DNA from: Clostridiales bacterium
Lineage (GTDB): Bacteria > Bacillota > Clostridia > Lachnospirales > Lachnospiraceae
Length of the DNA: 64,000 nucleotides
Direction of reading: 5' to 3'
Assembly (NCBI GenBank): GCA_012520645.1
Contig: JAAYNV010000028.1
Coordinates: forward strand, 1-64,000
Under the pieces are notes generated by a model, which ran no database searches, was not told the origin of the DNA, and worked only from the letters and a program-made list of their open reading frames with translations. Positions 38,572-64,000 of the stretch are shown one piece after another (position 1 is the stretch's first letter; each line of letters opens with the position of its first letter). Position numbers and translations under genes: made by a program.

Positions 38572-39879
38572 ATGGCTGGTTATTCTATGGCACTGAATAA
38601 TGTCTATAATCATTATCTGACTACCTACGCCTCAAAAAGCGTATCACGCTATGACACGCATAAAAAGAGCGAGCTCAGAAGCATTTATAATTCCATTGTC
38701 AAACTGAATAAAGAAGCTCCCCTTTGTATCGTTGACACGAGCAAGCAGTCCCAGCAGTTTGCAGTCGGCATCAAAGAAAATGCCCGTCTTCTGCACAATA
38801 CCATCGCGTCTTTAGGTGGTCTTGACGAGGAGACCCTGCTGAATAAGAAAATCGCCTGCTCCAGCAATGAGGAGCTTGTCACTGCCAAATATATCGGTGC
38901 AGAAAGCAATCCTTCCGTTATCCTTTCCTTTGATATCGTCGTTCAGTCACTGGCACAGCCGCAGACCAACATGGGGCATGTTCTCCCTTCGTCTGCAAAA
39001 GTGGCACTGGAGCCCGATTCCTATTCGTTTGATGTCAATATCAATGACCTGAATTATGAATTCCAGTTCCAGATCAATGCCGGCGATACTAATCTGGATA
39101 TACAAAACCGCCTTTCCCGTCTGATCAACAATGCAGGAATCGGTCTGAATTCCGAAGTATTAGAAGATGGTTCCGGCAACAGTACACTCGTTGTACGCTC
39201 CAATGCGACCGGACTTGTGGAAGACCGTGACTTCATTTTTCAGATTTCAGATGACCATACAAGCCGCCGTTCCGGCACAGTGGAATATCTTGGCATTCAG
39301 GATATTACCTCTCCTGCTGAAAATGCTTCCTTTTTATTAAATGGAAGAGAACGTACGGCTGCTTCCAACACCTTTTCGGTCGAGAAAACCTATGAGATTA
39401 CCTTAAACGGAGTCAGTACGGACGAAACCGTTTCCGCATCCATCGGTCTGAAAACAGATGTGGATTCCCTTTCCGAAAATATCAGTCATCTGATCGTCGG
39501 CTATAATGACTTTCTGCAGTCTACGGCAGCCCAACAGGTGCAGCCGGGAAGCCGCAATTTGTTTACAGACATGACCAGTGTATCTTCTTTATACCGAAGC
39601 GACCTGGAAGCCATCGGAATGAAATTTTCAGAAGACGGTCTGATATCACTGGATAAAGCTATTTTAAGCAATACTATCCACGATGAAAATACAGAAAATG
39701 TCTTTGAACCGGTACGGCATTTTGCCCACTCCATTCTGCAAAAGACAAATCAGATTTCCCTGGATCCGATGAAATACGTCAATAAAACCGTCGTTGCTTA
39801 TAAGAATCCGAGACGAAGTCTGGCTTCCCCATATATCACAAGTGCCTATAGCGGTATGCTGTTTAACAGCTATTGTTAA
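38572..39879 (+). CDS. FliD-like flagellar filament capping protein
   Basis: 435 residues from ATG 38572, chosen because AAAGGAGGAGC lies just before it; the track start is 57 bp upstream. The N-terminus (NNVYNHYLTTYASKSVSRYDTHKKSELRSIYNSIVKLNKEAP) and C-terminus are helical, as in FliD; the middle has beta-rich segments with Ig-like character (FLLNGRERTAASNTFSVEKTYEITLNG). FliD caps the growing filament. It is alone here: no other flagellar genes follow, and a bidirectional terminator closes it. Upstream, ACCGATAC (38494-38501) faintly resembles a sigma-28 -10. Family call is moderately firm. Confidence 0.7.
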   Translation: MAGYSMALNNVYNHYLTTYASKSVSRYDTHKKSELRSIYNSIVKLNKEAPLCIVDTSKQSQQFAVGIKENARLLHNTIASLGGLDEETLLNKKIACSSNEELVTAKYIGAESNPSVILSFDIVVQSLAQPQTNMGHVLPSSAKVALEPDSYSFDVNINDLNYEFQFQINAGDTNLDIQNRLSRLINNAGIGLNSEVLEDGSGNSTLVVRSNATGLVEDRDFIFQISDDHTSRRSGTVEYLGIQDITSPAENASFLLNGRERTAASNTFSVEKTYEITLNGVSTDETVSASIGLKTDVDSLSENISHLIVGYNDFLQSTAAQQVQPGSRNLFTDMTSVSSLYRSDLEAIGMKFSEDGLISLDKAILSNTIHDENTENVFEPVRHFAHSILQKTNQISLDPMKYVNKTVVAYKNPRRSLASPYITSAYSGMLFNSYC

Positions 39880-45853: not shown

Positions 45854-45854
45854 C

Positions 45855-48315: not shown

Positions 48316-48381
48316 ATTGAAATTCCTCCTTTTCACGAACATTTTCTTTTTCATTTTCATGAACAATACACTCAGATAAAA

Positions 48382-48503: not shown

Positions 48504-48837
48504 TCATTTTTTATACATACGTTCCAAAACTTCCAGTGCATATTTTTCATCCACAAAATAGGAAAAGACACTATTGGATAAAATTGCATCATACTTTGTT
48601 TCTGTTTCCAGATTGATCGCTTCATCACAAACTAAATCACCGGATGTTAAAACTGTTTTGGCACATTCTATCATCGACTGTGAATAATCCACTGTTTCTT
48701 TTTAACTCCAAAAAGACTTTTTCCTTATCTCCGGTATTTAATATCTGCCTATCTACCGAACGATTTTCCCATATGCTTTTCCAATAATTCACCTGATCTT
48801 CTCCTTTGTCCTTCTCTTCTGATATATTGCTTTCCAT
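48504..48837 (-). pseudogene. Truncated SAM-dependent methyltransferase
   Basis: Two pieces in different frames: the N-terminal EDQVNYWKSIWENRSVDRQILNTGDKEKVFLELKR and a C-terminal piece DYSQSMIECAKTVLTSGDLV...YDAILSNSVFSYF, which is motif I/II of a class I methyltransferase. The segment between, holding the SAM-binding glycine loop, is missing. It directly follows the aminotransferase pseudogene. Confidence 0.7.
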
Positions 48838-49770
48838 TTTTGATTTTTGCTGTCAGATCTTTCATAAAAATATTATTCTGAAGCAGATAGCATAGCAGTT
48901 CCCTGCTACTAATTTCTTGTCCCAACTCACACATAATATAATTTGCCTGGGATGGAAAGACCGTTAAATAGGGAATCGCTTTCAATTCTTCAATTAGCTG
49001 ACTCCTGCTTTCCTTCACTTTTTGTAATGCCGACATATAATCTTTTTTATACTTGTCTGCAATCTGCATATAAAATTCCCCAAAGGAATTAATATTTCAA
49101 ATAGACAAGTTATTCTTTATTTGCCGGATAACCTCCTGATTGCCGCTTGCCAGTACCCCTAACCTCGCTCCGGGAATTCCATGTGATTTTGAAATACTTT
49201 TCACTACAAAAAGTCCCTCACTATATTGGTCCAGCCATTTTGGCGAAATTTGAGTTAATTCTTCCTTCATTTTGTCTGACGGGTAATATGGATTGACTAA
49301 ATAGCAATAATCCAATATTTTGGGATAACGCCAGTATCCTCCATAGCGCCTTGCTATTGCATCATACTCTGCCTCTATACTCTCAGCGAATAAACTTTCT
49401 GCTATATCAAGATCCTGTATATCATCAATTTCCTCTTCAAAGATCAGATCCGACTCTAACAACAGGCTGTCTTCCGATATTAAATACTCCTTTGCCAGCG
49501 CCAGCGAGTAGATATTATTGGTCTTATGATAAATTGGATTGTTGATATGACATATAGGCGTCTTTACATTTAAAGTTCCAACATAATCAATTAGTTTTTT
49601 CCTTCATATCCTACTACGATAACAATTCTTGACAGCCCCTTTTTGTCTAAAATACCTAATGCCCGTTCTATCAAAGTAACGCCATTCACCTTTACCATAC
49701 ATTTGGTATTTCCGGCCGTTAATTCTTTTAATCGCTTTCCCATTCCCGCAGCCAAAATAATTGCCTGCAT
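48838..49770 (-). pseudogene. Nucleotidyltransferase-aminotransferase fusion, frameshift plus in-frame stop
   Basis: From ATG 49770 (GGAGGAAAC before it): MQAIILAAGMGKRLKELTAGNTKCMVKVNG, a LicC-type nucleotidyltransferase. One base is missing from the run GGAAAAAACT near 49592; seven As would restore the frame into LIDYVGTLNVKTPICHINN. The C-terminal part is a class I PLP aminotransferase (HisC-like) with the Lys motif VVKSISKSHGIPGARLGVLAS. It is cut by a TGA at 49097-49099 where a Trp (TGG) fits (NNLSI-stop-NINSFGEFY). Its last residues run into the methyltransferase remnant. Intact homologues are bifunctional enzymes of surface-glycan loci. Confidence 0.75.
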
Positions 49771-49851
49771 ATGTTTCCTCCTGCAATAATAAGTTATCAT
49801 TTTCCTCCAAGTCTGATATAATAAATTTATCTTGATTGGAGGAATACATTT

Positions 49852-51006
49852 ATGAAAATGTTATTTTATAGTTGGTCCGGAATCACTGAAAAAGATGCGA
49901 TGCAGACCCTTCAAAAAATGGGGGTTCACATCACAGTTCTTTCACATTCTCCCAAAAACTATAACGAGGATCCAGATCTTCTTTTAAGACTGGAGCAGCT
50001 TTACCGTCAACAGCCTTTTGACTGTGTCTTTTCGTTTAACTACTTTCCGGTAATCTCTACCTTCTGCAATCAAATGAAAATAAAATATTTATCCTGGGTA
50101 TATGATTCTCCACATTTGACCCTTTTTTCTAAAACAGTTTTTAATAACTGTAATAATATCTTTCTGTTTGACCGTTGTATGTATCAGGAAATGATTGAAA
50201 TGGGAGCAAAACATATTCATTATCTTCCCCTCGCAGTCAACACTGATCGTCTGCATTTTTTACAGTCATCTTTCCCATCCGGTTATATACATGACATTTC
50301 CTTTGTCGGAACACTATATAACGACCAGTATAATTTTTATGATCAGATCCAGTATCTGCCTCCCCATATAAAAGGGACTCTGGATGGATTAATTCAATCT
50401 CAACTACAGATATGCGGATATGACTTTTTACAGGATATGATTACTCCTGAAATGTGCAATGAAATTTTTAAATATATTCATTTAAGTCTGGGAGAAGAGT
50501 ATTTAAAATGTGAAAAAAATATTTTTTTGAATATTCTTTACCGCAAAATATCTACATTAGAACGGCAAAACTTTATCAATACTATCAGCCAGCTATTTCC
50601 CACTGCGCTTTACTGCAAAACTCCTACTCCCGAATTTCCTTCCGTTATAAATATGGGATATTCCGATCCCTATACTCAGACACCTATGGTTTTCAAGCGC
50701 AGCCGCATTAACTTAAATATCACGCTCCGCTCTATTCAATCTGGAATCCCACTAAGAATTCTCGATATCATGGGAGCTGGAGGTTTTGTACTTTCCAATT
50801 ACCAGAGTGAACTTTCCGAATATTTTGATATCGGTACAGAAATTGTAATTTATGAAAATCTGGATGACTGTCTGGAGAAAATTGATTATTACCTTAAACA
50901 CGACGAACTGCGGGAGAAAATCGCCCAAAAAGGTCATGAAAAAGTTGTCCAATTATTTACTTACGAACGCCAGTTAGGAAAACTGTTAGATATTGCTTTG
51001 CTCTAA
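49852..51006 (+). CDS. CgeB/DUF3880-type glycosyltransferase
   Basis: 384 residues, TTGGAGG before the ATG, behind TATAAT (about 49817). The N-terminal half (FDCVFSFNYFPVISTFCNQMKIKYLSWVYDSPHLTL) and the C-terminal RINLNITLRSIQSGIPLRILDIMGAGGFVLSNYQSELSEYFDIGTEIVIYENLDDC match the GT-B-like DUF3880/CgeB family, found in spore-coat and flagellin glycan loci. It is divergent from the decayed genes and convergent with the long glycan operon, overlapping its last gene by 21 bp. Confidence 0.8.
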   Translation: MKMLFYSWSGITEKDAMQTLQKMGVHITVLSHSPKNYNEDPDLLLRLEQLYRQQPFDCVFSFNYFPVISTFCNQMKIKYLSWVYDSPHLTLFSKTVFNNCNNIFLFDRCMYQEMIEMGAKHIHYLPLAVNTDRLHFLQSSFPSGYIHDISFVGTLYNDQYNFYDQIQYLPPHIKGTLDGLIQSQLQICGYDFLQDMITPEMCNEIFKYIHLSLGEEYLKCEKNIFLNILYRKISTLERQNFINTISQLFPTALYCKTPTPEFPSVINMGYSDPYTQTPMVFKRSRINLNITLRSIQSGIPLRILDIMGAGGFVLSNYQSELSEYFDIGTEIVIYENLDDCLEKIDYYLKHDELREKIAQKGHEKVVQLFTYERQLGKLLDIALL

Positions 51007-52530
51007 TATTCCATCCAAATTTTCTTTAATGATTTTCTCCTCCGGATACAACTCATTGGCAATCGCAAGCCACCTTACTGCTGTTTTCGTTTTTCCTTGT
51101 GCATAAGAACAACAGGCCTTTGCAAACAGAATATCACAATCCAATTGCATCGAATCATCGAAAGATTGCAACATTTTTTCTACAAGACTATAATCCTCTC
51201 CGCTAATTGCATTGTTCAGCTGCACTTTCTTGTCATACTCATAATCTTCGGTTCCAAGAAATGCAGAAATATACTCTCGCGCTTCTTCAAGACTTCCGCA
51301 TTCTTTTCCCGTCATGCACTTAACACAGAGATTCAACAGATCATTTCCATTGCGAAATGTATTAGCATGACTGATATGACTTACTACACATAATACAATA
51401 TCCTGTTCATCACTGCATTTATCAACGATATGTCGCTTTGTTATAAACCGCCTGGCATAATTATACTGATAAAAAAACTGTATATCTTCACCATTCTTCT
51501 GGGCATCCCGGTATATTTTATCCAATACACTATCGACCATATTCTCCCAATTTTTCCTATCCTCATCCACCAGTATCGTTATATATTCAAGATAAACTTT
51601 ATCTGAGAGTAAATTCTCAATAAATCTTAAGCGTTCTGATAATGATATTCCCTGAATATTTCCTATCATATTGAGTTCTATCTGCAATCCACCCAAATGT
51701 ATTGCACATAAACACTTCAAATTCTTCTCATTATCCTTTTTCCACATTTTTAATAACAATAAGGTTTGAAAAAAAATTTCATCATAACACAAATATCGTT
51801 CTTTATAATAATATGACATTGATACAGAATTAGCTCTGACCCTATAATAATAAAGCGGTTCTTCTATACACACACAACTTTTCGCTATCTGCAAAAGTCT
51901 TAAACAAGTATACGTATCTCCACCTTGAGAAATATAAGCAGGTCTCTCATAAATATATTTCATATTTTCTATATATAATTCTCTTTTGATCAGCTTTCCC
52001 CATACCGGTCTAAAAGCATTATAAAAATCTCTAATATCATCTCCTAACTCAGAAATATCTTCAGACTCAAATTGCTTTGGCACAACTATACGACCTATTC
52101 TCTTTATATCATCATTCAAAAATTGAACCGAACCCGCTGCAATTATATCAACTTCTCCATCCTTAGACTTCCCATATAATTTCTTTAGAAATTCAACATG
52201 TAAAATATCATCGCTATCTAAGTCCGCTATATACTTGCCCCTTGCAAAAGCAAGCAAATCTAAATAAGTATAATAGCCTTCTTCATTCTGTACAATAGAA
52301 TTATAATTTTTCTTATTGAAATATAAGCGTATTCTATTATCTCTTTCCGCATATTCTTTTAATATATCCCCGGTTCTATCAGTTGATCCATTTTCTAAAA
52401 CAATCCACTCAAAATCAGCAAATTTTTGATTTATCACGCTTTTAATGCAGTCTTCAATATATTTTTCAACATTATATGCACGTGTTATAATAGTCACCTT
52501 TATTTTATGCTCTACTGTATTCTCTTTCAT
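50986..52530 (-). CDS. GT2 glycosyltransferase with helical C-terminal domain
   Basis: 514 residues. The GT-A domain occupies about 1-240: VTIITRAYNVEKYIEDCIKSVINQ, ENGSTDRTGDILKEYA, and the DXD site IADLDSDD near 98. The C-terminal 270 residues are helical with TPR-like segments (AKACCSYAQGKTKTAVRWLAIANELYPE) and may bind protein acceptors. It is the last gene of the glycan operon; its 3' end overlaps the convergent CgeB-like gene. Confidence 0.88.
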   Translation of the reverse strand: MKENTVEHKIKVTIITRAYNVEKYIEDCIKSVINQKFADFEWIVLENGSTDRTGDILKEYAERDNRIRLYFNKKNYNSIVQNEEGYYTYLDLLAFARGKYIADLDSDDILHVEFLKKLYGKSKDGEVDIIAAGSVQFLNDDIKRIGRIVVPKQFESEDISELGDDIRDFYNAFRPVWGKLIKRELYIENMKYIYERPAYISQGGDTYTCLRLLQIAKSCVCIEEPLYYYRVRANSVSMSYYYKERYLCYDEIFFQTLLLLKMWKKDNEKNLKCLCAIHLGGLQIELNMIGNIQGISLSERLRFIENLLSDKVYLEYITILVDEDRKNWENMVDSVLDKIYRDAQKNGEDIQFFYQYNYARRFITKRHIVDKCSDEQDIVLCVVSHISHANTFRNGNDLLNLCVKCMTGKECGSLEEAREYISAFLGTEDYEYDKKVQLNNAISGEDYSLVEKMLQSFDDSMQLDCDILFAKACCSYAQGKTKTAVRWLAIANELYPEEKIIKENLDGILEQSNI

Positions 52531-52549: not shown

Positions 52550-52792
52550 CTATTTATTATCAACTTTATCCTTCACAAAATTGACAATATTCATAACATT
52601 TTCAAAGTTCTCCTTTGCTATTTCATCCAAGTCTATAACAATGTTATAAGTTTCCTCAATTTCCTGCACCAGAAGAAACAAAGCCACGGAATCTAAAATG
52701 CCACCTTCCAAAAGATTTGTTTCCTTATCAAATTCTTCATACGGTTGAATTTCCTCAATTAATTCTATAATTTTCTTTTCTATTTCTTCCAT
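52550..52792 (-). CDS. Discrete acyl/peptidyl carrier protein
   Basis: 80 residues from ATG 52792 (MEEIEKKIIELIEE); the track's extra residues lie in the upstream gene's end. LLEGGILDSVALFLLVQEIEE contains the Asp-Ser attachment site for phosphopantetheine. It directly follows the adenylation enzyme gene, so the pair probably activates and holds an amino or hydroxy acid, as DltA-DltC do. The acceptor is likely a sugar of the glycan encoded here. Confidence 0.85.
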   Translation of the reverse strand: MEEIEKKIIELIEEIQPYEEFDKETNLLEGGILDSVALFLLVQEIEETYNIVIDLDEIAKENFENVMNIVNFVKDKVDNK

Positions 52793-52799
52793 AGTTCCA

Positions 52800-54335
52800 T
52801 TAACTCCTTGCTTTCTCTTCTCTACTCTTTTTATTAAGCCAAACTCTATCCAACTTTCCATTTACATTCAGGGGAATATCCTCCAATATTCTTATAACTT
52901 TAGGCATCATATACTTGGGAATTTTTTCCTTTAATTCATTATAAATCTCTTTTTCCAAAATTGCTTTTGAAGTTGAACAGTATAAAATAATTTTCTCCCC
53001 ATCATAAATAGCACACGCTTGCCTTATCCCATTTACAGAATATGCTGCACTATCAATTTCTCCAAGTTCAATTCTGTGACCCTGATACTTGATTTGTGAA
53101 TCCTTTCTACACAAATATATAATTTCTCCCAATTCATTATATTTTACTATATCACCTGTTCGATAAATCAAATCACGATATCTTGTGTTTAAAGGATTTT
53201 GTATAAAGACTTCGTTTGTTTTTTCAAATTGTCCATAATAGCCTAACGATAGGCAAATCCCTCTGACACACAATTCCCCTGCCTCTCCAGGCTGCACCAA
53301 TTCATTTTTTTCATTTAAGACAATAATCTCTGTATTTCTACACGCTTTTCCTATTGGCAGCGATTCTTCCTCTTTGAATTCTCTGTCAACAATATAATAG
53401 CTACAGACATCCGTAATCTCCGTTGGCCCATACAGATTAGCATAAAGCAAATCAGGATAATACTTTCTCCATTCATTCAATGGTTTTACCGGCATTACCT
53501 CTCCACAAAACAACACTTTTTGCAATGTGCAAAACCTTGTTTCCTTCAATACTCCAGAGTTTGCAACTGCAATTAATGCCGATGGGACCCAGAAGAATGT
53601 ATTTATTCTATTCTCATTAACGAAGTCAACTAACTGCGAATGAAACATAAAGTATTTTTCCGGGATAATAACCATTGTTGCTGCATTTTTAATTGTCTGA
53701 TAAATGTCTAAAATAGAATTATCAAAATAAAAGGGCGCTTGATTTCCAAATATTGTATTGTTATCAAAATGAAAAGTATCTGAAAGCCATTCCATATAAT
53801 CAATGACTGCCCTATGACTAATTACAACTCCCTTGGGTACTCCGGTAGAACCAGATGTGAACAATGTATATAGTGGATCAACATCTAACTGATCCGATAA
53901 AGTTTTTTCTAATTCATATTCTATTTCTTCTGAATCAGCATCCTCTATCTTCATTACTGCTTTAAAATCTATCTCCAACTGCCTCGTATGTATATTTTTT
54001 TCTGAAGAGTAATTCGTCAAAATCAGTACCGGCTTCAATGTGTTCAATACTATATTAATACGTTCAATAGGTGAATGAATATCTATCGGTGAATAGAAAT
54101 TCCCACTATATACAATCCCCATGAAGGCAACGATACAATCTATCCCTTTCTCCATGTATACAGCTATCGGCTCATTCTTTTGGCTGCCCAGTTTTTTTCT
54201 GATTCCGCTCGCAATACACCTTGCCTTTCTATCCAGTTCAGCAAAAGTAATCTCTTTCTTTTCATCTTTAAATGCAATTTTATTTGGATATTTTTCTCTG
54301 CTTTCCAACAAATATTCAATCACACTTTTCTTCAT
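52800..54335 (-). CDS. DltA-like stand-alone adenylation enzyme
   Basis: 511 residues, close to DltA length. ANL-superfamily core motifs: LFTSGSTGVPKGVVISH near 155, LYANLYGPTEITDVC near 290, YRTGDIVKYNELGEIIYLCRKDSQIKYQGHRIELGEID near 390, and the C-terminal catalytic Lys in NGKLDRVWLNKK. It should load an acid onto the carrier protein encoded 8 bp downstream. No dltB or dltD accompanies it, so this is not the teichoic-acid D-alanylation operon; substrate specificity cannot be told by eye. Confidence 0.88.
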   Translation of the reverse strand: MKKSVIEYLLESREKYPNKIAFKDEKKEITFAELDRKARCIASGIRKKLGSQKNEPIAVYMEKGIDCIVAFMGIVYSGNFYSPIDIHSPIERINIVLNTLKPVLILTNYSSEKNIHTRQLEIDFKAVMKIEDADSEEIEYELEKTLSDQLDVDPLYTLFTSGSTGVPKGVVISHRAVIDYMEWLSDTFHFDNNTIFGNQAPFYFDNSILDIYQTIKNAATMVIIPEKYFMFHSQLVDFVNENRINTFFWVPSALIAVANSGVLKETRFCTLQKVLFCGEVMPVKPLNEWRKYYPDLLYANLYGPTEITDVCSYYIVDREFKEEESLPIGKACRNTEIIVLNEKNELVQPGEAGELCVRGICLSLGYYGQFEKTNEVFIQNPLNTRYRDLIYRTGDIVKYNELGEIIYLCRKDSQIKYQGHRIELGEIDSAAYSVNGIRQACAIYDGEKIILYCSTSKAILEKEIYNELKEKIPKYMMPKVIRILEDIPLNVNGKLDRVWLNKKSREEKARS

Positions 54336-54380: not shown

Positions 54381-55460
54381 TCATCTCTTCAAACTGCTTC
54401 TATAAAATTTATCTATCTGCTTATCCATACAGGCTCTTATATCACCACTTTTTGCCCAACATTTATACCATTCTACAGTCATTGCAACGGCTGTTTCAAT
54501 ATCCCAATTGGGAGACCAACCAAACACTTTTTTTAACTTTGAACAATCTAGCTTTAAAAAACTTGCTTCATGTGGACTATCATCAGAATGGCTTACCCAC
54601 TTTATATGATTCCCCCAATATTTTACAAATAACTCAACTAATTCTCCTGTTTGCAAACAATCACTATCATTTGGTCCCACATTATACCAGTCTGAATAGT
54701 TAGTACTATTATACTGATTCGCAGCAATCATCAGATACACATATAAAGGTTCTAAAACATGTTGATATGGTCTTATAGAAAAAGGATTCCTTACCACAAT
54801 ATCCTTCTGTTCCATTGCTGCACGAACACAGTCTGGAATAATTCTATAATTTGCAAAATCTCCTCCCCCAATTACATTTCCTGCCCGAACAGTAGAAACA
54901 GCTACCCTATTCATCTCCGTTTCATTTGAAAAAAAACACCGTTTATAAGTATGCGTAATAAGTTCTGAGCACGATTTCGAATTTGAATATGGATCATATC
55001 CATTCAGTACATCATTTTCTCGATATCCCCATTCCCATTCACGATTCAAATAAACCTTGTCTGTAGTTACATTTACAAAAGATTTTACGTTGCAATTATG
55101 TCGTATACATTCTAAAATATTGACAGTTCCCATTATATTGGTTTCATATGTATAAGCTGGATTATTATATCCCTCCCGTACAATTGACTGTGCAGCTAAA
55201 TGAAAAACTATCTCTGGTTGGGCCTTATCAAATGCTTCTTTCAACGCTGAATAATCCCTGATATCTCCATAAATAGAATGAACATCCTCTTCCAAATGTG
55301 CAATCTTAAACAATGATATTCGTTCTTCTGGTTCCAAAGAATATCCAGTAACCACCGCTCCAGCATCAGCCAATATTTTGCATAACCATGACCCTTTAAA
55401 ACCGGTATGCCCTGTAATGAAAACTCTTTTTCCTTTATAAAATGTAATATCAAACATCAT
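54381..55460 (-). CDS. rfbG: CDP-glucose 4,6-dehydratase
   Basis: 359 residues; KRVFITGHTGFKGSWLCKIL dinucleotide-binding motif, SIVREGYNNPAYTYETNIMGTVNILE, TTDKVYLNREWEWGYRENDVLNGYDPYSNSKSCSEL with the SDR YxxxK. It converts CDP-glucose to CDP-4-keto-6-deoxyglucose. The matching cytidylyltransferase rfbF is in the same operon. The downstream enzyme RfbH for 3,6-dideoxysugars is not in the window. ATGA overlap with the preceding gene. Confidence 0.95.
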   Translation of the reverse strand: MMFDITFYKGKRVFITGHTGFKGSWLCKILADAGAVVTGYSLEPEERISLFKIAHLEEDVHSIYGDIRDYSALKEAFDKAQPEIVFHLAAQSIVREGYNNPAYTYETNIMGTVNILECIRHNCNVKSFVNVTTDKVYLNREWEWGYRENDVLNGYDPYSNSKSCSELITHTYKRCFFSNETEMNRVAVSTVRAGNVIGGGDFANYRIIPDCVRAAMEQKDIVVRNPFSIRPYQHVLEPLYVYLMIAANQYNSTNYSDWYNVGPNDSDCLQTGELVELFVKYWGNHIKWVSHSDDSPHEASFLKLDCSKLKKVFGWSPNWDIETAVAMTVEWYKCWAKSGDIRACMDKQIDKFYRSSLKR

Positions 55461-56008
55461 TGCACCTTTTCCTCCAGCGCCCTAATATACTGATCAGCAT
55501 TTTCTTTTTCTTTCTCATCCGTGCTCAATTCCTTTACTCTATGGAAAATCACAATTGCCTTTTCCAACATTTCTTCTTTAACATATAACTTACCCAACAA
55601 CAATAAGTACTCTGTACTATTATTAAACTCCTCATAAAAATCAGCATAGACGGAAGATACATTTTGATAACTCTGACTGAAAAAAAGTGCATAACCATAC
55701 ATTATTATCATTTGCTTCATCCATTTTTCTTTCAAATTAAACAAATCCGACCGTACAACATCATCAATCGTTATTACCACATTTTCCCAGTCTTTTTTCT
55801 CAATCTGTTTTGCAATTAAATCTCTCTTTTGTTTTAATATGTCTTTACTTACAGATTTCTCATATGACCAGATTTTTTCAAGCTCTGTATACTCACTATT
55901 AGTTTCATACAATTTTGAGTTTAAAATGGTTCGAAATGGTTCTTTAATCCAATTTGCCTCTGGTCTATCAAATACTTCTAAATTAGTACATTCATCATGT
56001 TCAGGCAT
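55457..56008 (-). CDS. Hypothetical helical (TPR-like) protein of the glycan operon
   Basis: 183 residues from ATG 56008, which overlaps the radical SAM stop (TAATG); the track start adds 12 residues inside that gene. The C-terminal half repeats the TPR pattern (YLLLLGKLYVKEEMLEKAIVIFHRVKELSTDEKEKENADQYIRAL). No catalytic motif. It sits between the radical SAM and rfbG genes and is probably an adaptor for the glycan machinery. Not recognised. Confidence 0.7.
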   Translation of the reverse strand: MPEHDECTNLEVFDRPEANWIKEPFRTILNSKLYETNSEYTELEKIWSYEKSVSKDILKQKRDLIAKQIEKKDWENVVITIDDVVRSDLFNLKEKWMKQMIIMYGYALFFSQSYQNVSSVYADFYEEFNNSTEYLLLLGKLYVKEEMLEKAIVIFHRVKELSTDEKEKENADQYIRALEEKVQ

Positions 56009-56889
56009 TACCCCCCCCATGCTTGAAAATTTGTACAAGAACAATAATTTCTATTACATCTTTTCCCAACAGCTTCCAATGGTAATTCATATATATTTTC
56101 ATAAAAATTAAAAGAATTTGATGCATTGGATAAACATTCCCAACAGCTTCCTGTTGTTAAATTTAGCATAAAACACCATTTCCCAGCATAGCAAAATTCG
56201 TCTCGTTTCTTGTTAAATTCCTTCTTATCCAATTCAAACATCTGTGATTCAAATTTATCTCCCATCCGAAAATATTCATCTATACCCATCTCTGTGCATA
56301 TAGAAAATGTTCCATCCGGATTATCTTGACGAGCAATTCCAACTTGCGGATAAGCTCCAATTTCCTCTTTACATATTGTTCTCAATTCCTTCGCCAATTC
56401 TTCGTTAAACTCACGCCCCAAAACAGTTTTAATATGAAAGGATATTCCTTGACTTTGTACATATTTAACATTTTCAAAAAATTTCTTTAACAGCTTCTTT
56501 CGTTTTAACTCTACATAATGCAATGACAAATGAAAACAGATATGGTCTGCTTTTCCTATCCCTTGTAAACGCTCAACCAGTTCACGCATCCTATCAGAAA
56601 TAGTTCCATTTGTTAATACATTAACATAGTGCCCTTCCTGCACCAAAACCTCTATCAAATCCACTATTTCTTTTGGCAATAGTGTTTCTCCATCACCAAC
56701 AAGATTAAAAAGACATGAACCTCCTAATCTCCTTATACTGCATGCCTGTTGTATTACCTCAAGCGTATAGTTTAAACAACTATCTGTTCTGGTTTGATTA
56801 TACTTTGCCTGTCTTAGATAACAATAACTACATTGCAAATTACATCCGCATCCATTTATATTAGCTTCAATATAGTGTTTTATTCTTAC
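56008..56889 (-). CDS. Radical SAM enzyme of the glycan locus, unusual start codon
   Basis: About 293 residues. The track start at 56838 drops the first cysteine of CNLQCSYC, the CxxxCxxC 4Fe-4S motif; the frame upstream encodes VRIKHYIEANINGCGCNLQCSYC and has GGGAGGAG at the right distance from a GTA codon at 56889. No ATG, GTG or TTG is in frame there, so the start may have mutated or be non-canonical. GDGETLLP and LTNGT fit the TIM-barrel core. C-terminal cysteines (CFMLNLTTGSCWEC, KRCNRNYCSC) suggest an auxiliary cluster or SPASM-like domain. Substrate unknown; sugar or peptide modification is likely. Confidence 0.75.
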   Translation of the reverse strand, partial: VRIKHYIEANINGCGCNLQCSYCYLRQAKYNQTRTDSCLNYTLEVIQQACSIRRLGGSCLFNLVGDGETLLPKEIVDLIEVLVQEGHYVNVLTNGTISDRMRELVERLQGIGKADHICFHLSLHYVELKRKKLLKKFFENVKYVQSQGISFHIKTVLGREFNEELAKELRTICKEEIGAYPQVGIARQDNPDGTFSICTEMGIDEYFRMGDKFESQMFELDKKEFNKKRDEFCYAGKWCFMLNLTTGSCWECLSNASNSFNFYENIYELPLEAVGKRCNRNYCSCTNFQAWGG

Positions 56890-56966
56890 CGATTTTTCTC
56901 CTCCCGTATTAGTCTATTGCTTTTCTGTTGTTAACTCCTTGTTATACACCACTCTCTTCTCCAAAA

Positions 56967-58088
56967 TTAGATATCATTCTTTGGAATTAAATAACAAACT
57001 GTTTCCGTCTGATTATCACTATAATGTCTCAGATAGATTTTACAGGTAATTCCCAGACTTTCTATATATTTAGGTATTTCTAATATATCCTCTTCTTTAT
57101 GATAAACACATATTGCCATAACCGGTCTATTTTCCTTTATTGTATTCTGAGCCCCTCGCAACGAAGACATCTCCGCTCCCTCAACATCCATTTTAATCAT
57201 ATCTATCTTCTGTGTTTTTCCCGCAAAGCAACTATCTATTCTACACACTTTAAAAGAATTGAGTTTCTCTTGGTCTTCTGTAAAAATTCCTTTTTCAATA
57301 GTCTGCATAACTCCAAGAGCGCATTCTACTTGTACGCTTCCATCATATTCTGATGTAGCCATAGGAATCAACGTAATATTATCATGAGTTTTTAAATTAT
57401 TTTGAGCTTGTTTAAAGATTTTTTCATCTGGCTCAAAACCAAATATTTCTTTATAATTTCCCTCTACCACCTCAATAAAACTTGAAATTGTATCTCCTGT
57501 ATACATTCCTGCATCCAGATAATATTTTACTTTATGGAATTCAACGATCTCCTTATCAAAATATTGATCCATCCTTCTAATGGCTGTCGCATATTTTCTG
57601 TTTCTTGTCCGCAAAAATAAAAGTCTATTTTTTAATACTTTTTTTGATTCTTCATCTTCTAATCGTTCATATAACACCTGTATATCACTTTCATGCCTTT
57701 TATAATACTCTATACAACTACTTTCCCACTGAAACTGAAATACTATATCATAGTTGGAAATATTTTCTTCACGAATACCTCCTTCCAGTAATTGTTGCTT
57801 AATCTGACTATAATATAATTGTGTCGTAATATAATAATACGCATTAGGAAAAAGTTCCTTTGAACGTTCAAACAAAACAATTTCTATATCATCTACTTTC
57901 TTTCCACTCTTCTCCTTGGAATTGTCACAAAATGCAACAGGAAATATTTCCTTATCTCTAAAATATTGTAAGTTTATTTCACTTGTGCTGCCTGCACCAA
58001 AAAGAATAATAGGCTGATCCATGGACTTCATTTTTTCAATCTCTTCTAAATATTCTTCCGTATACATACACACTTCATCAATCAACAT
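56967..58088 (-). CDS. FkbM-family methyltransferase with N-terminal Rossmann-like domain
   Basis: 373 residues. N-terminal IILFGAGSTSEINLQYFRDKEIFPVAFCDNSKEKSGKK resembles a nucleotide-binding PglD-like fold. FkbM part: YLDAGMYTGDTISSFIEV near 190, IDMIKMDVEGAEMSSLRGAQNTIKENRPVMAI near 295. FkbM enzymes O-methylate sugars or natural products. Paralogous in layout to the gene at 60295-61464, so the glycan may carry two methyl groups. Confidence 0.85.
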   Translation of the reverse strand: MLIDEVCMYTEEYLEEIEKMKSMDQPIILFGAGSTSEINLQYFRDKEIFPVAFCDNSKEKSGKKVDDIEIVLFERSKELFPNAYYYITTQLYYSQIKQQLLEGGIREENISNYDIVFQFQWESSCIEYYKRHESDIQVLYERLEDEESKKVLKNRLLFLRTRNRKYATAIRRMDQYFDKEIVEFHKVKYYLDAGMYTGDTISSFIEVVEGNYKEIFGFEPDEKIFKQAQNNLKTHDNITLIPMATSEYDGSVQVECALGVMQTIEKGIFTEDQEKLNSFKVCRIDSCFAGKTQKIDMIKMDVEGAEMSSLRGAQNTIKENRPVMAICVYHKEEDILEIPKYIESLGITCKIYLRHYSDNQTETVCYLIPKNDI

Positions 58089-58135: not shown

Positions 58136-59338
58136 TTATTTCAATGCTTCTTCAATTTTTGTTGCAAACAACTCTGCCAACCGCTCTCTTCCTCTCTCAT
58201 TGATTGTCTCATCCGGAGAATCCTTATCTGAGAAAAAATCTTTTGACAGCAAATAGCTCATATCAAATAATTCTACATTTTCATCTTCTGTAATCATTCT
58301 TATTTTACTTACATTTTTTTGATATCGAGTTGTGAACTGTTCTCCCAACAATTCTTCACCCAACATGTAATTAATTGCCGGAATGTATGGCACAACCTTC
58401 ACGCCTTCCTTTTTCGCAAGTCTTAATATCTTTACAAGATATTGAACACCTTCCAGCTCTGTATTTAAAGAATATAGATAATTCATCTTAAGATATATCT
58501 TGTTTCGATTCAAGATAGCAATCTCTTCATTGCAGTTAGATGCAATTGAAAATTCTGTCTGAAGATTTTTTATTCTTTCCCATACTATACTTCTATATTC
58601 TTCCAGTTCTTCATCTTTTACCGGTGTTTCTTCATAAACCATCTGTATCAATTCCGCATGCTGTGACCGCGGTAACAGATATTGTTTTGGTGTCAACGTA
58701 TCAAAATTAACCATGACTACCAAGAGTTTCGGCTTCATTCCAAGTGTAATCTGTGATTTGAAAATATTATAATAAGCTCGTAAACCCATACCATGCATTG
58801 CCAGAATTTTTAAATCATTCTTATTAACCCTATCCTTTAACATTTCAGCCAAATTTCTTGTATTCGAATCTTTCAATGCAATTTTAGAAAATTCACAATC
58901 TGCCAATAGTAATACGTTGCCAGAATAATTTCTTCTAAATTCATTCATATACTTTTCGTACAAATCTGATTTTACAGTATAAAAATCTTTTTCAGCAACA
59001 AAACCCATTTCACTTAATTGTTTTTCTATTTCACTACTATGTTCTGTAGAAATAATAATTTTTATTTCCGTCCTCCTCTTGCAAAGCTCATCCGGTGACA
59101 TAATCGGAAATTCATGTATCCTGCCGCCCCATTTTTGAGGATTATTATCTACAAAATAAATATCCTTATATCCACACTTTTTTAAAATAACTGAAAATTC
59201 CGTTCCTCTGATTCCTGCTCCAAAAATAACTATTGTACTCAATTCTGCTCTGTGATTGTTTACACACTGCATCAGCGCGTCATAATCTTCCCGATTTACC
59301 GAAGTGACAGGCCATGCAAAATTTTTTACCTGTGACAT
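58136..59338 (-). CDS. Rossmann/SGNH-like two-domain protein
   Basis: 400 residues from ATG 59338 (MSQVKNFAWP), preferred because GGAGAAGG precedes it; the track start is five codons upstream. The N-terminal domain has IVIFGAGIRGTEFSVILKKCGYKDIYFVDNNPQKWGG, like the leading domain of the neighbouring FkbM proteins. The C-terminal 250 residues look like a degenerate SGNH hydrolase (VLLLADCEFSKIALKDSNTRNL start; DSPDETINERGRERLAELF end), but the usual catalytic His is not evident. Possibly an acyl transfer or recognition partner in the glycan locus. Not firmly recognised. Confidence 0.55.
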   Translation of the reverse strand: MSQVKNFAWPVTSVNREDYDALMQCVNNHRAELSTIVIFGAGIRGTEFSVILKKCGYKDIYFVDNNPQKWGGRIHEFPIMSPDELCKRRTEIKIIISTEHSSEIEKQLSEMGFVAEKDFYTVKSDLYEKYMNEFRRNYSGNVLLLADCEFSKIALKDSNTRNLAEMLKDRVNKNDLKILAMHGMGLRAYYNIFKSQITLGMKPKLLVVMVNFDTLTPKQYLLPRSQHAELIQMVYEETPVKDEELEEYRSIVWERIKNLQTEFSIASNCNEEIAILNRNKIYLKMNYLYSLNTELEGVQYLVKILRLAKKEGVKVVPYIPAINYMLGEELLGEQFTTRYQKNVSKIRMITEDENVELFDMSYLLSKDFFSDKDSPDETINERGRERLAELFATKIEEALK

Positions 59339-59358
59339 TTTTACCTTCTCCATTTGTA

Positions 59359-60294
59359 TTATCTAATATATTTCTCCATATATTCTCGTTCAAATTCTTC
59401 TATATATGGCGAGTTATAAAACTCATCATAGTGCTCTTTTAACTCGTTCTTCACATATACCAAATGTTCCTTACAATCCGTCAGATGATTTATCGAAATC
59501 TTATTGCACATTGATATCATATAAGACCATTCACTATATTGAACATATTCTGCAATTCCAGGAAGCTTGTTTGAAAGATACTCTGTTCTCTCTCTAAAAG
59601 CTATAAAATACTCCTTCATTCTTTCCGCAGTCCAAAGTTTACTATTGGTTGTAAATGCAGAAATATTCCCTGAATGCCTCGAAAAACAATATTTCGGTAT
59701 TCCATGTGCCACTACACGGTTTGCCATTGCAAAATATTTATACATAACACTTATATCATCGATTGTTCTGTCTGTTCGAAAACGTTCCTGACAAAGCAAT
59801 GCTCTTCTCATTAATTTTGTCGGCTCTGCTGCATTATATTTTTTCCTTTTCAACATTTCAACAACGCCTTCCTCGGCAGTCAATACCAGCTTTTCCTCAA
59901 ATACATAATTAGGCAGGATTTCTCCGTTAACCTCCTTTGTTGAACCACAAATAGAAATATCTGCATCCTCTTCTTTGGCTAAATGATATAAAAATTCTAG
60001 CATATCCTTTTCAGCTATGTCATCGTCATCTATAAATGTGACATATTCCCCTGTTGCCGCATCAACCCCGGCATTTCTTCCTGTTCCGATATTAATATTC
60101 TTTGGAATATGAATAACTCGAATTCTCTTATCCTTTTTCGAATATTCATCTGCAATGGTTCCACTTCTATCTTTGGAACCATTGTCCACAATAATAAACT
60201 CAAAATTTTTCATTGTTTGATTCAAAATTGATTCTATTGCCCTGCCTACCAATTCTTCTCTATTATAGGTCAACATGATAACCGAAACATCCAT
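59359..60294 (-). CDS. GT2 glycosyltransferase
   Basis: 311 residues; GT-A fold with VSVIMLTYNREELVGRAIESILNQ, IVDNGSKDRSGTIADEY, and YVTFIDDDDIAEKDM near 90 (metal site). The ATG directly follows the stop of the upstream FkbM gene, with GGGAGG inside that gene's end. No membrane helices. Probably adds one sugar of the flagellin or surface glycan. Confidence 0.9.
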   Translation of the reverse strand: MDVSVIMLTYNREELVGRAIESILNQTMKNFEFIIVDNGSKDRSGTIADEYSKKDKRIRVIHIPKNINIGTGRNAGVDAATGEYVTFIDDDDIAEKDMLEFLYHLAKEEDADISICGSTKEVNGEILPNYVFEEKLVLTAEEGVVEMLKRKKYNAAEPTKLMRRALLCQERFRTDRTIDDISVMYKYFAMANRVVAHGIPKYCFSRHSGNISAFTTNSKLWTAERMKEYFIAFRERTEYLSNKLPGIAEYVQYSEWSYMISMCNKISINHLTDCKEHLVYVKNELKEHYDEFYNSPYIEEFEREYMEKYIR

Positions 60295-61464
60295 CTACCT
60301 GATCCTCCCACTGTCAATCGCTGTAAATACAGTTTTACAGTCTCCAAAAATCATTTTTTGTCTTAGAAAAACACGATAATTATCATTGAGTTCTTTCATA
60401 TACAAAAGCATTTCTGTCAAGTTCTCTTTCCTTGTCCCAAATTCTCCAACAATAACTGGTTTATACTGTTGAATTGTTTTTTTACATCCTCGTAGTGTTT
60501 GAAAGTCAGCTGCTAATGCGTTAATTTTTAAGATGCCGCATGGCTCTCCTTGCAACAAATTGTCAACTGTATTTACCTCTATCTTTTCTTCCATAAAATC
60601 TTCTTCTTCAATTCCACAGCTGCTTGGAATTGTTTCACTCATATTTTTAAAAAAATTGGGAGAATCAAAATTCCTTTTGTTTTTATTTTGTGCTGTAAAA
60701 AAAGTCAAAGTATCCTTACATTCCCATGCTCCGCACTGAAAAGTTTCCACATTCTTCAATCTTCCCAACTTAACAAGCATTTGCAAGCCTTCATAATTTT
60801 CCTCATCCGGTTCAATTGCATATATTTTCTTGTACTTTCCTCCACAAAAAGCATAATAACGCAACAATGTATCCCCTGTATATGCCCCTACATCAACATA
60901 ATTGTCTTCCTCAAATGAATGAAATAACTTACTGTCAAAAAAGGATTCTCCATCAACATATTTTAATAATGGAAATTTATTTCCGCATAACCTGAAATTG
61001 ACATTTTCAACAAAAAGCTCTTTTGAGAAATTATCTTCCAGAAATTCATATACAGTCTCAAACTGTTCAATATTGGCCCTAATATAGTCATAGTCCAGAA
61101 ATTCATTATCCACCTTAAAGGGTTTTTCCATGTGAATTATCTTATTTTTTTCTCCCGCTTCCTTCAACTGCTTTTCAATTTCAACAGCTCCTCCAACCGC
61201 TGCTGTAATAAGCATATCGTATTGCGAGTATTTCTGTTTGATTTGTGCATATGACAAAACTTCTGTTTCCTCAAACTTCTTTCCCCATAACTTTGAATTA
61301 TTGTCACAAAAAGCATCCGGATAAATTCCCTTGCATTCTAATATTTTCTTTACAATATGTGCATTATTTCCACATCCCCAGAATATGACAGGTTTCCCTG
61401 TTTTTCTCTGATTCCAAAACAACTCTTCTTCTTTCATGATGCTATTTCTAAAAGTATTCTTCAT
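60295..61464 (-). CDS. FkbM-family methyltransferase with N-terminal Rossmann-like domain
   Basis: 389 residues from ATG 61464; GAGG precedes it, whereas the track start is a TTG on top of that site. N-terminus KPVIFWGCGNNAHIVKKILECKGIYPDAFCDNNSKLWGKKFE parallels the other FkbM protein in the operon. FkbM core: YVDVGAYTGDTLLRYYAFC and KIYAIEPDEENYEGL; the late motif is weaker (GILKINALAADFQTLRGCKKTIQQYKPVIVGEF), with Asn-Ala replacing the usual Asp-Val/Glu-Gly, so activity may be reduced. Confidence 0.82.
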   Translation of the reverse strand: MKNTFRNSIMKEEELFWNQRKTGKPVIFWGCGNNAHIVKKILECKGIYPDAFCDNNSKLWGKKFEETEVLSYAQIKQKYSQYDMLITAAVGGAVEIEKQLKEAGEKNKIIHMEKPFKVDNEFLDYDYIRANIEQFETVYEFLEDNFSKELFVENVNFRLCGNKFPLLKYVDGESFFDSKLFHSFEEDNYVDVGAYTGDTLLRYYAFCGGKYKKIYAIEPDEENYEGLQMLVKLGRLKNVETFQCGAWECKDTLTFFTAQNKNKRNFDSPNFFKNMSETIPSSCGIEEEDFMEEKIEVNTVDNLLQGEPCGILKINALAADFQTLRGCKKTIQQYKPVIVGEFGTRKENLTEMLLYMKELNDNYRVFLRQKMIFGDCKTVFTAIDSGRIR

Positions 61465-61486
61465 AGGTTTCCTCAACTAATATCCA

Positions 61487-62266
61487 CTACCACTTTTTCC
61501 ACGGTGCAGATCCTTCATTCCATATTTTTTCTAACATCCCTTTATCCCGCATCGTATCCATACACTGCCAGAATCCAGTATGCTTATAAGCTGCTAATTG
61601 TAAATCAGCTGCCAATTTATTTAATACTTCTTTCTCAAAAACCAGTTCATCATCATCTCGTAAATATTCGAATATTTCTGGCTGAGCAACCATAAAGCCA
61701 CCATTGATCCATGCTCCATCTTCCTGTGGCTTCTCATCAAACTTATCAATTCCCGCTCCATCTTCTTGAAAACTAAGTACCCCAAAACGGCTACCTGGTT
61801 GAATAGCTGTCATAGTAACTGTTTTCTGGTGTTTCCTGTGAAACTCTAGAAGCGCACCCAAATCAACATCGCTTACCCCATCCCCATAGGTAAGCATGAA
61901 CGGCTCATCCCCTACATACTTATGTATTCTGAAAATACGCGCACCAGTCTGAGCTTTTTCTCCCGTATCTACTAAAGTTACTTTCCATGGTTCAGCTACA
62001 TTGTTATGTACAATCATCTTATTGCTATCTGTAAAATCAAATGTAATATCAGAACGATGAAGGTAATAATCAGCAAAATACTCTTTAATCACATATCCCT
62101 TATATCCACAACATATTATGAATTCATCAAATCCATATGCCGAATAATACTTCATGATATGCCATAAAATCGGCGCATCCCCTATTGCTACCATGGGTTT
62201 AGGTTTGACTGTACTTTCCTCACTGATTCTTGTTCCCAGACCGCCCGCTAAGATTACTACTTTCAT
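61487..62266 (-). CDS. rfbF: Glucose-1-phosphate cytidylyltransferase
   Basis: 259 residues from ATG 62266; GGGAGG lies inside the track's 8-residue extension. MKVVILAGGLGTRISEESTVKPKPMVAIGDAPILWHIMKYYS is the RfbF signature; LTYGDGVSDVDL near 128 and WINGGFMVAQPEIF near 180 complete the fold. It makes CDP-glucose from CTP and glucose-1-phosphate, the substrate of RfbG in the same operon. Confidence 0.96.
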   Translation of the reverse strand: MKVVILAGGLGTRISEESTVKPKPMVAIGDAPILWHIMKYYSAYGFDEFIICCGYKGYVIKEYFADYYLHRSDITFDFTDSNKMIVHNNVAEPWKVTLVDTGEKAQTGARIFRIHKYVGDEPFMLTYGDGVSDVDLGALLEFHRKHQKTVTMTAIQPGSRFGVLSFQEDGAGIDKFDEKPQEDGAWINGGFMVAQPEIFEYLRDDDELVFEKEVLNKLAADLQLAAYKHTGFWQCMDTMRDKGMLEKIWNEGSAPWKKW

Positions 62267-62301
62267 ATTTTTTGTTTTCCTCCCAGTCACTGTGTATACC
62301 T

Positions 62302-63384
62302 CTAAGCAAAAATTTCAATAATCTGCGCTTCATAATCTGCATCCTGTATATCCGCTACCAGCTCTCCACCCAGAAATTCATTATTATACTTATACGGAAC
62401 AGCTACACGTTCTCCCTGTCCCGCCAGAAACCATTCATACTCTAAATCAGCATGCCCGATATCTACTGCCTGAATCCCTTTCTTACAAAGATCATATGCA
62501 AGTACACCCGCACAAGGTCCCATGGCAATCAAAACCAGATCCTTCTCCTTTGCATTTTTAAGTACAGCTTCCAAAATCTCTCCATACCGGTCAAAGGAAT
62601 TCTCCGCTGGTCCCAATATTCTCCTGACAGACTCTACATTACTTAGGAAATCATTCTTCACACCGAATCTTGTCTTTGCGCCTTCTACCATAATAATATT
62701 GCGTTTTTCCCATATACTTTGCAGCTTTTTGAAACGCTTCGCCGGAGCATCCGTAAAACGGTCTTCATATAAAATATACGGTCTTGTAACATACGCATCA
62801 TAATAGATCCGATCCGTTTCCAACAGTTGTTCATGCAGTTTTCTTGTTTCCGGTGTCATATAACTGCGAATCCCCTGTGCCGCACCGTAACAATATCTAT
62901 CAAGCGATCCATAATTATCTGCAATTCCTATGAGCAAATCCTCCTGTCTGGAATGCAGCACCTCTTTCAGCCGGTCTGCGAGCTTCTCATCCACTTTTTG
63001 AAACTTTGCTCTCTCAATCCCCGCTATTATGGAAATTTCTCCATCTCCGAACCTCGCCAGAGACTTCCCCTTCTCTACAATTTCTCTGATCGCAACATCT
63101 CCGCTTACAATATTCGGATACCAGTATTTCTGTTCGCCCTTCCGTGGATCCTTCCACTCATACTCAAGGTTTTCTCTTTGTAAACGCGTTATTTTATATA
63201 AGGAAACCAGATCCTTCTGCAGGGAACTGATCGCATTCTGCTGATTTACGATCATATCCTGCATTCCTGTAAGCAGTCTGTGAATATCCGCCCTCCATTT
63301 TTCAAATGCCTCATCCTTTTGATTCCATGCATCCGCCTGTTGAAGAAGATATTCACACACTTCCGTAAGTTCGGTATCTTTCAT
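62302..63384 (-). CDS. GT-D-fold glycosyltransferase
   Basis: 360 residues from ATG 63384, preceded by GGAGGAAAAAC; the track start is nine codons upstream. After a helical N-terminus (coiled-coil-like, 1-90), VEKGKSLARFGDGEISIIAG is the GT-D signature (RFGDGE), followed by IIMVEGAKTRFGVKNDFLSN and VLIAMGPCAGVLAYDLCKKGIQAVDIGH. GT-D enzymes act in serine-rich-protein and flagellin-type glycan elongation. First gene of the operon behind the sigma-28-like promoter. Confidence 0.88.
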   Translation of the reverse strand: MKDTELTEVCEYLLQQADAWNQKDEAFEKWRADIHRLLTGMQDMIVNQQNAISSLQKDLVSLYKITRLQRENLEYEWKDPRKGEQKYWYPNIVSGDVAIREIVEKGKSLARFGDGEISIIAGIERAKFQKVDEKLADRLKEVLHSRQEDLLIGIADNYGSLDRYCYGAAQGIRSYMTPETRKLHEQLLETDRIYYDAYVTRPYILYEDRFTDAPAKRFKKLQSIWEKRNIIMVEGAKTRFGVKNDFLSNVESVRRILGPAENSFDRYGEILEAVLKNAKEKDLVLIAMGPCAGVLAYDLCKKGIQAVDIGHADLEYEWFLAGQGERVAVPYKYNNEFLGGELVADIQDADYEAQIIEIFA

Positions 63385-63507
63385 GTTTTTCCTCCACATA
63401 AAAAAGGACATTATGGCATGCCCTTAATGGTCGTCATAATGTCTTAGTTATAATTCTATGACTGTGCATCCATGCAGCTTTTTTGTTCATCCTAAACATT
63501 TATATAT

Positions 63508-63534
63508 ATATCGGCATTTCCTCTTAAAATCTTA
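63508..63534 (-). promoter_or_regulatory. Sigma-28 (SigD/FliA-type) promoter of the glycan operon
   Basis: Minus strand: TAAG (63531-63534), 15-bp spacer, GCCGATAT (63508-63515). The -10 matches the SigD consensus GCCGATAT exactly and the -35 differs by one base from TAAA. Downstream, GACATTATG/CATAATGTC (63407-63443) forms a leader hairpin. Confidence 0.7.
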
Positions 63535-63613: not shown

Positions 63614-64000
63614 ATGTATCCTTTATCCGCATGTATCATTGCAAAAAATGAAGAAAAAAATCTTGATAGCTGTCTGCGAAGTCTCAAAAATATTGTCTCT
63701 GAGATTGTTTTAGTAGATACCGGTTCTACCGATCATACGCAGGAGATTGCTGCCAAATACACTGATAAAATTTTTTCTTTTTGCTGGTGCAATGATTTTA
63801 GTGCCGCCCGCAATTATGCTGTCTCAAAAGCTTCCAATGACTGGATCATCAGCCTCGACTGCGACGAATACATGAAAGATTGTGATACCTCTGTGCTGGC
63901 TGATTTTTTATGTCCTGCCAATCAACAGACCATTGGTCAGTTTTCTTTACAGAATCTTCTTCCGAATGGTTCCCCGCAATCTGTGCAAACCGATATTGTT
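63614..64000 (+). CDS. GT2 glycosyltransferase, 3' part cut by window edge
   Basis: Open from ATG 63614 (CGGAGG before it) to the window end, 129 codons, absent from the ORF track for lack of a stop. LSACIIAKNEEKNLDSCLRSLKNIVSEIVLVDTGSTDHTQEIA and FSAARNYAVSKASNDWIISLDCDEYM give the GT2 fold and DXD site; the WCNDFSAARN segment is typical of SunT/SPBc2-type glycosyltransferases often fused to TPRs. A sigma-A promoter (TTGTTT-17-TATAAT, ending about 63583) drives it, divergent from the glycan operon. Confidence 0.88.
   Translation, partial: MYPLSACIIAKNEEKNLDSCLRSLKNIVSEIVLVDTGSTDHTQEIAAKYTDKIFSFCWCNDFSAARNYAVSKASNDWIISLDCDEYMKDCDTSVLADFLCPANQQTIGQFSLQNLLPNGSPQSVQTDIV

Follow-up and report, generated by a model that had tools for sequence, protein, structure and literature searches.

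The window (the whole 64,000-nt stretch of DNA that was analysed) belongs to contig C69, one of 72 in a draft genome of 2.70 Mb that is 88% complete. It contains 12 co-directional genes on the minus strand, running from 63384 down to 50986, in agreement with the count given in an earlier note on this DNA. An intergenic sigma-28 (SigD) type promoter lies ∼120 nt upstream of gene 1, between this operon and a glycosyltransferase gene that diverges from it on the plus strand (Table 1). Read along the minus strand from 63534 to 63508, the site is TAAG-ATTTTAAGAGGAAAT-GCCGATAT, followed by ATATATAAATG; a 15-nt spacer separates the -35 box TAAG (63531-63534) from the -10 box GCCGATAT (63508-63515), and the sequence 3' of the -10 box, ATATATAA, includes a downstream ATAT. 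The site thus has the TAAA-like -35 box and the CCGATAW -10 box at the right spacing that define sigma-28 promoters, and differs from TAAA-N15-GCCGATAT by a single mismatch (TAAG for TAAA), which confirms the earlier identification of this motif on sequence. No suitably placed inverted repeats, of the kind expected for an invertible promoter, were found flanking the site. Gene 1 probably starts at 63384 rather than at 63411, because a ribosome binding site (GTGGAGG) is present at 63391-63397.

Table 1. Features of the window, and full-form SigD-like sites on other contigs of the same genome.
Position	Strand	Feature	Basis
38572..39879	+	Short FliD-like protein	Partial FliD_C match
49852..51006	+	Convergent DUF3880 + Glyco_trans_1_2 glycosyltransferase	Family match
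50986..52530	-	Gene 12: GT2 glycosyltransferase, last of the co-directional run	
52550..52861	-	Gene 11: acyl/peptidyl carrier protein	Below cut-offs
52800..54335	-	Gene 10: amino-acid adenylation enzyme	TIGR01733 over cut-off
54381..55460	-	Gene 9: CDP-glucose 4,6-dehydratase (RfbG)	TIGR02622 446 bits; PDB 1rkx
55457..56044	-	Gene 8: 195 aa, without family match	
56008..56838	-	Gene 7: radical SAM enzyme	Family match
56967..58088	-	Gene 6: FkbM-type methyltransferase	Family match
58136..59353	-	Gene 5: weak C-methyltransferase C-terminal domain + DUF1574-like part	Weak match
59359..60294	-	Gene 4: GT2 glycosyltransferase	Family match
60295..61476	-	Gene 3: FkbM-type methyltransferase	Family match
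61487..62290	-	Gene 2: glucose-1-phosphate cytidylyltransferase (RfbF)	TIGR02623 389.7 bits, cut-off 300
62302..63384	-	Gene 1: GT-D fold glycosyltransferase, SP_1767/DUF1792 family	Profile and structure matches
63385..63507	-	Predicted start-site region and 5' leader of operon transcript	Start inferred from promoter position
63400..63445	-	Intrinsic-terminator-like hairpin GACATTATG/CATAATGTC, then T6	Between promoter and gene 1
63465..63476	-	UGCAUGGAUGCA: GGA in small hairpin loop, weakly CsrA-site-like (speculative)	
63508..63534	-	Sigma-28 (SigD) type promoter	Matrix score and Markov background
63614..64000 (runs to C69:64669)	+	Divergent TPR-type GT2, SunS-like	
C16:27164		Full-form SigD-like site before hag	Pattern search
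C16:15356		Full-form SigD-like site before flgM	Pattern search
C16:22267		Full-form SigD-like site before flaG	Pattern search
C7:156503		Full-form SigD-like site before mreB-flgFG	Pattern search
C7:211893		Full-form SigD-like site before pstS	Pattern search

The widest gap within the operon is 128 nt (56839-56966). Gene 1 scored 284.7 bits against PF08759 (cut-off 27) and 254.5 bits against TIGR03728, i.e. under the cut-off of 290.75 for that family, and we therefore assign it to the GT-D fold and not to the TIGR03728 equivalog. RfbF and RfbG both scored above their equivalog cut-offs, and RfbG also resembles CDP-glucose 4,6-dehydratases of solved structure. This makes CDP-4-keto-6-deoxyglucose, or one of its derivatives, the probable nucleotide sugar, with the remainder of the sugar predicted. 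None of the 12 genes, of which gene 5 is weakly and gene 8 not assigned, was recognised as encoding a flippase, an ABC exporter, a polymerase or a priming transferase. Glycosyltransferases together with sugar-nucleotide genes, and without recognisable export or polymerisation genes, are the content expected of a flagellin glycosylation locus.

Several neighbouring genes belong to families with relatives close to flagellin genes. Relatives of the convergent DUF3880 glycosyltransferase flank flagellin genes both in this genome (on C16) and in G015, where a protein 44% identical to the divergent SunS-like GT2 is also encoded near a flagellin. The FliD-like gene, which the earlier note took as support for a motile host, is not a FliD cap: its product has only a partial FliD_C match, its family lacks a full FliD_N, and the true FliD of this genome is encoded at C16:22906. 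As a family it does adjoin flagellin/GT-D clusters (on 15 Lachnospiraceae contigs): of the 45 loci in the close group described below, 15 carry relatives of the window protein (37-48% identity), typically beside flagellin and GT-D genes, and four of these relatives (L140, L149, L153 and L160) are preceded by a sigma-28-like site. The support that the note drew from this gene therefore stands, though on different and firmer grounds. Beyond the operon, the minus-strand region 44336-48366 encodes a fused HTH/nucleotidyltransferase/choline-kinase-like protein, a second nucleotidyltransferase and a BCCT transporter, likely a CDP-choline supply adjoining the glycan locus. The short open frames at 48749-49849 (minus strand), one of which matches part of an aminotransferase, look like a decayed gene.

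When two or fewer mismatches were allowed, the bare consensus TAAA-N15-GCCGATAT had 361 matches genome-wide, compared with 306 for the reversed pattern, and one-mismatch places numbered 33 in the 2.7 Mb genome; a plain match to these 12 letters is by itself weak evidence for the window site. The pattern TAAR-N14..16-NCCGATAW was found at 31 sites in the genome (8 + 23; reversed controls gave 20 in all), most of them inside genes. Only six of the 31 are correctly oriented upstream sites that run on into ATA, namely the window site and the five on C16 and C7 in Table 1. It is this extended form of the window site, including the downstream ATA, that is significant. We scored it with a two-block matrix built from 21 flagellar promoters (17 sites upstream of flagellins in relatives and four sites of this genome), from which the window site was left out. 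Because the flagellin sites had been picked as the best upstream matches, the matrix leans somewhat towards the consensus. The window site scored 22.5 bits, within the training range of 10.7-26.6, and was by far the best in the 64 kb, the runner-up independent site reaching 14.1 bits. With a third-order Markov background, 40 Mb of simulated sequence yielded no site that reached 22.4 bits, and a score of at least 20 bits would be expected 0.27 times per genome. The number of one-mismatch matches and the mostly intragenic position of the tighter-form sites are what a chance match would lead one to expect; against this stand the extended matrix score, the intergenic placement, the orientation and the spacing of the window site, and we regard a chance origin as very improbable.

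The earlier note had proposed looking for the same motif before fliC, and we found it before hag, as well as before flgM and flaG on the same contig (Table 1). These genome-wide counts rest on pattern searches and chosen stretches; the names flgM, flaG, mreB, flgF and pstS were taken from translations, without a family search, and the automatic gene caller had put the hag and mreB sites inside short overlapping open frames. The sigma factor itself, FliA/SigD (FliA_WhiG), is encoded at C14:8535 (260.5 bits, cut-off 189.6), and the genome also encodes flagellins, FlgL and two CsrA proteins; by gene content, the host, a gut-type member of the Lachnospiraceae, is motile. A -35 box of the TAAG type also precedes flagellins in G003, G012 and G033, and one TAAG variant upstream of a relative's flagellin reads TAAGGATTTTTGGCAAAATGCCGATAAATATAAC (L077); TAAG is not unusual in this position.

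As no flagellin gene was found on C69, the link between the operon and flagellin rests on relatives. A single-protein search of the species genomes gave no relatives. A search with a GT-D alignment gave 79 loci, which were divided into a close group of 45 (L180 together with the first 44 entries of the list) and a distant group (the other 34). The close relatives of gene 1 are Lachnospiraceae loci. A flagellin gene lies within 10 kb of the GT-D homologue in 22 of the 45 close loci and in none of the 34 distant ones (Fisher 3e-7), a probability that is indicative, since the loci are related to one another and the ranking had been viewed before they were split; with any flagellar marker (including FliD and the FliD-like family) the counts are 29/45 and 0/34. 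Sigma-28-like sites of at least 17 bits in the close loci lie mainly on the GT-D strand (27, compared with six on the opposite strand), and although many of them are flagellin promoters, such sites directly precede GT-D operons in L123, L132, L135, L146, L151 and L180. L123 is the G015 locus, in which a gene-1 homologue (56% identity) shares a contig with two flagellins, FlgL, the SunS-like transferase and DUF3880 transferases. The promoter itself is not alignable across close relatives, because gene 1 is absent from the same-genus genome G001 and the content of the operon differs from that of its closest relatives. Matches to RfbF and RfbG beside GT-D in relatives were rejected as orthologues, being only 22-30% identical.

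Taken together, these results make it likely that a SigD/FliA promoter transcribes an operon whose glycan goes onto flagellin. In this scheme FlgM would release SigD at hook completion, and SigD-RNA polymerase would start ∼7 nt downstream of GCCGATAT and produce a transcript spanning the 12 genes (63384 to 50986). The products of the operon (RfbF, RfbG, the methyltransferases, the radical SAM enzyme, the adenylation enzyme and the carrier protein) would make a modified CDP-6-deoxy-hexose glycan, which the GT-D and GT2 enzymes would transfer to flagellin in the cytoplasm, before export. That the site 'drives' the operon, in the words of the earlier note, we infer from the sequence, as we do promoter activity, co-transcription, flagellin as the acceptor and the identity of the sugar. 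The link to late flagellar expression that the note had drawn is supported by the matrix score, the genome-wide list of sites and the presence of the sigma factor.

The same DNA could be read in other ways. The operon product might be a capsule, an exopolysaccharide or a teichoic-acid decoration instead of a flagellin glycan. Loci for surface polysaccharides often contain CDP-sugar enzymes and GT2 transferases, and elsewhere in the window there are a CTP-transferase/choline kinase, a BCCT transporter, a UDP-galactopyranose mutase and a PGA_cap protein. However, the export, polymerisation and priming functions of such loci were not recognised in the operon, transferases of the GT-D, DUF3880 and SunS-like families are repeatedly found near flagellin, and the promoter is of the SigD type. 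We therefore consider a surface polysaccharide improbable, and the preference of the earlier note for flagellin glycosylation over capsule is supported by the co-location of GT-D and flagellin genes and by the lack of recognisable capsule export and polymerisation genes. It is similarly unlikely that expression comes mainly from a housekeeping sigma-A promoter, with the SigD site adding little. There is a candidate for such a promoter, a TG-extended CATAAT with ATGACG upstream (63437-63410, minus strand; 9/12 matches), from which transcription would start just upstream of the ribosome binding site, and both promoter types have been predicted for some Roseburia and Eubacterium flagellin genes (PMC3720852). 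Sites of this quality, however, occur at chance level (64, compared with 59 in shuffles), and the candidate overlaps the leader hairpin.

A further alternative, which we regard as possible though doubtful, accepts the SigD promoter but has most transcripts end at the hairpin at 63400-63445, giving a leader RNA of ∼100 nt; SigD would then be necessary but not sufficient, and expression of the operon would need a second signal (attenuation or antitermination). The hairpin is formed by a 9-bp inverted repeat (63407-63415/63435-63443), with T6 within 63400-63406, directly before the ribosome binding site; an alternative 8-bp stem lies at 63404-63425. In isolation it has a predicted stability of -11.4 kcal/mol (z -2.7), and terminator-like hairpins also follow the SigD-like sites before pstS and mreB. 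However, a terminator scan gave only a slight excess (six sites, compared with 3.5 ± 2.1 in shuffles), shuffled sequences fold as well as the full leader (z -0.44), no Rfam family reached its gathering score in the 2 kb stretch covering the leader, and no LoaP antiterminator scored above cut-off. The hairpin may therefore be an attenuator, or nothing. Control of the leader by LoaP is not supported, the best match in this 88% complete genome being an ordinary NusG (96.3 bits, cut-off 125), and control by CsrA is not claimed, as the GGA loop and a csrA gene are present but the fold is no better than chance. A conditional terminator in the leader, combined with a SigD promoter of the operon's own away from the flagellin genes, would gate the flagellin glycan operon twice, so that hook completion would set the timing of flagellin modification and a further signal would trim it; we think this rather unlikely.

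Flagellin glycosylation under SigD remains the best reading of the operon, and a SigD-timed glycan operon is both well supported and a fairly expected arrangement. In Clostridioides difficile the flagellin glycosylation genes (CD0240-CD0244) depend on sigD; that cluster adjoins fliC, and as no SigD promoter of its own was found, co-transcription from fliC has been suggested (PMC3865298). Both systems have glycosyltransferase genes that are, or in our case probably are, under SigD and serve the flagellar filament, whereas the window operon has its own SigD site on a contig without flagellin and encodes a CDP-glucose pathway, an adenylation enzyme and a carrier protein. An operon that stands apart and carries a SigD site of its own thus extends the known arrangement only modestly and does not amount to a novel type of system. 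The box types of the site are shared with the flagellin sigma-28 promoters of Roseburia, Eubacterium and Butyrivibrio, which have TAAA or TAAG and (N)CGATAT mostly 15-17 nt apart by that paper's counting, with TAAG listed before an R. inulinivorans flagellin (PMC3720852); those sites precede flagellin genes, whereas the window site precedes a glycan operon. Gene 1 shares its catalytic family with the GT-D (DUF1792) domain of dGT1/GalT1 from Streptococcus parasanguinis (PDB 4pfx, E 1.5e-42), which adds glucose to the protein-bound Fap1 glycan (PMC5063993), although the acceptor there is a serine-rich adhesin and for gene 1 would be flagellin.

Nothing specific was found in the literature on Lachnospiraceae flagellin glycans. 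The nearest parallels are the Lachnospiraceae flagellin/GT-D/DUF3880 clusters (for example L139, L146 and L156-L160), which likewise have a GT-D homologue, a DUF3880 transferase and a short FliD-like gene, and several of which carry sigma-28-like sites. Unlike the window, they have a flagellin gene near the GT-D gene, and their sugar-nucleotide enzymes are different ones, with a nucleotidyltransferase and a dehydratase that are only 22-30% identical to those of the window. The gut is rich in flagellins of Lachnospiraceae, which the host senses. The 12-gene operon, whose glycan probably decorates such flagellins in step with flagellin itself, points to enzymes worth testing, and the GT-D subgroup, with flagellin next to it in roughly half of the examined loci, can help to assign flagellin glycosylation in Lachnospiraceae that have not been cultured.

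Some observations were made outside the window. The SigD-like site upstream of pstS (C7:211893-211918, minus strand; L001) has its terminator-like hairpin immediately after it, and a closely similar sequence occurs in G001 (L091:4786-4812), ∼1.3 kb from a flagellin gene; a short RNA is a possible product. One csrA gene lies in the C16 flagellar cluster, and a second, weaker csrA match (C58:326-475) is directly upstream of a flagellin gene (C58:946). The hag leader, at the end of C16, contains a GCGGCAGGGAAGCCGC hairpin with an AGGGA loop and has its ribosome binding site in a second hairpin (fold z -3.2), and can be likened to CsrA-regulated flagellin leaders.
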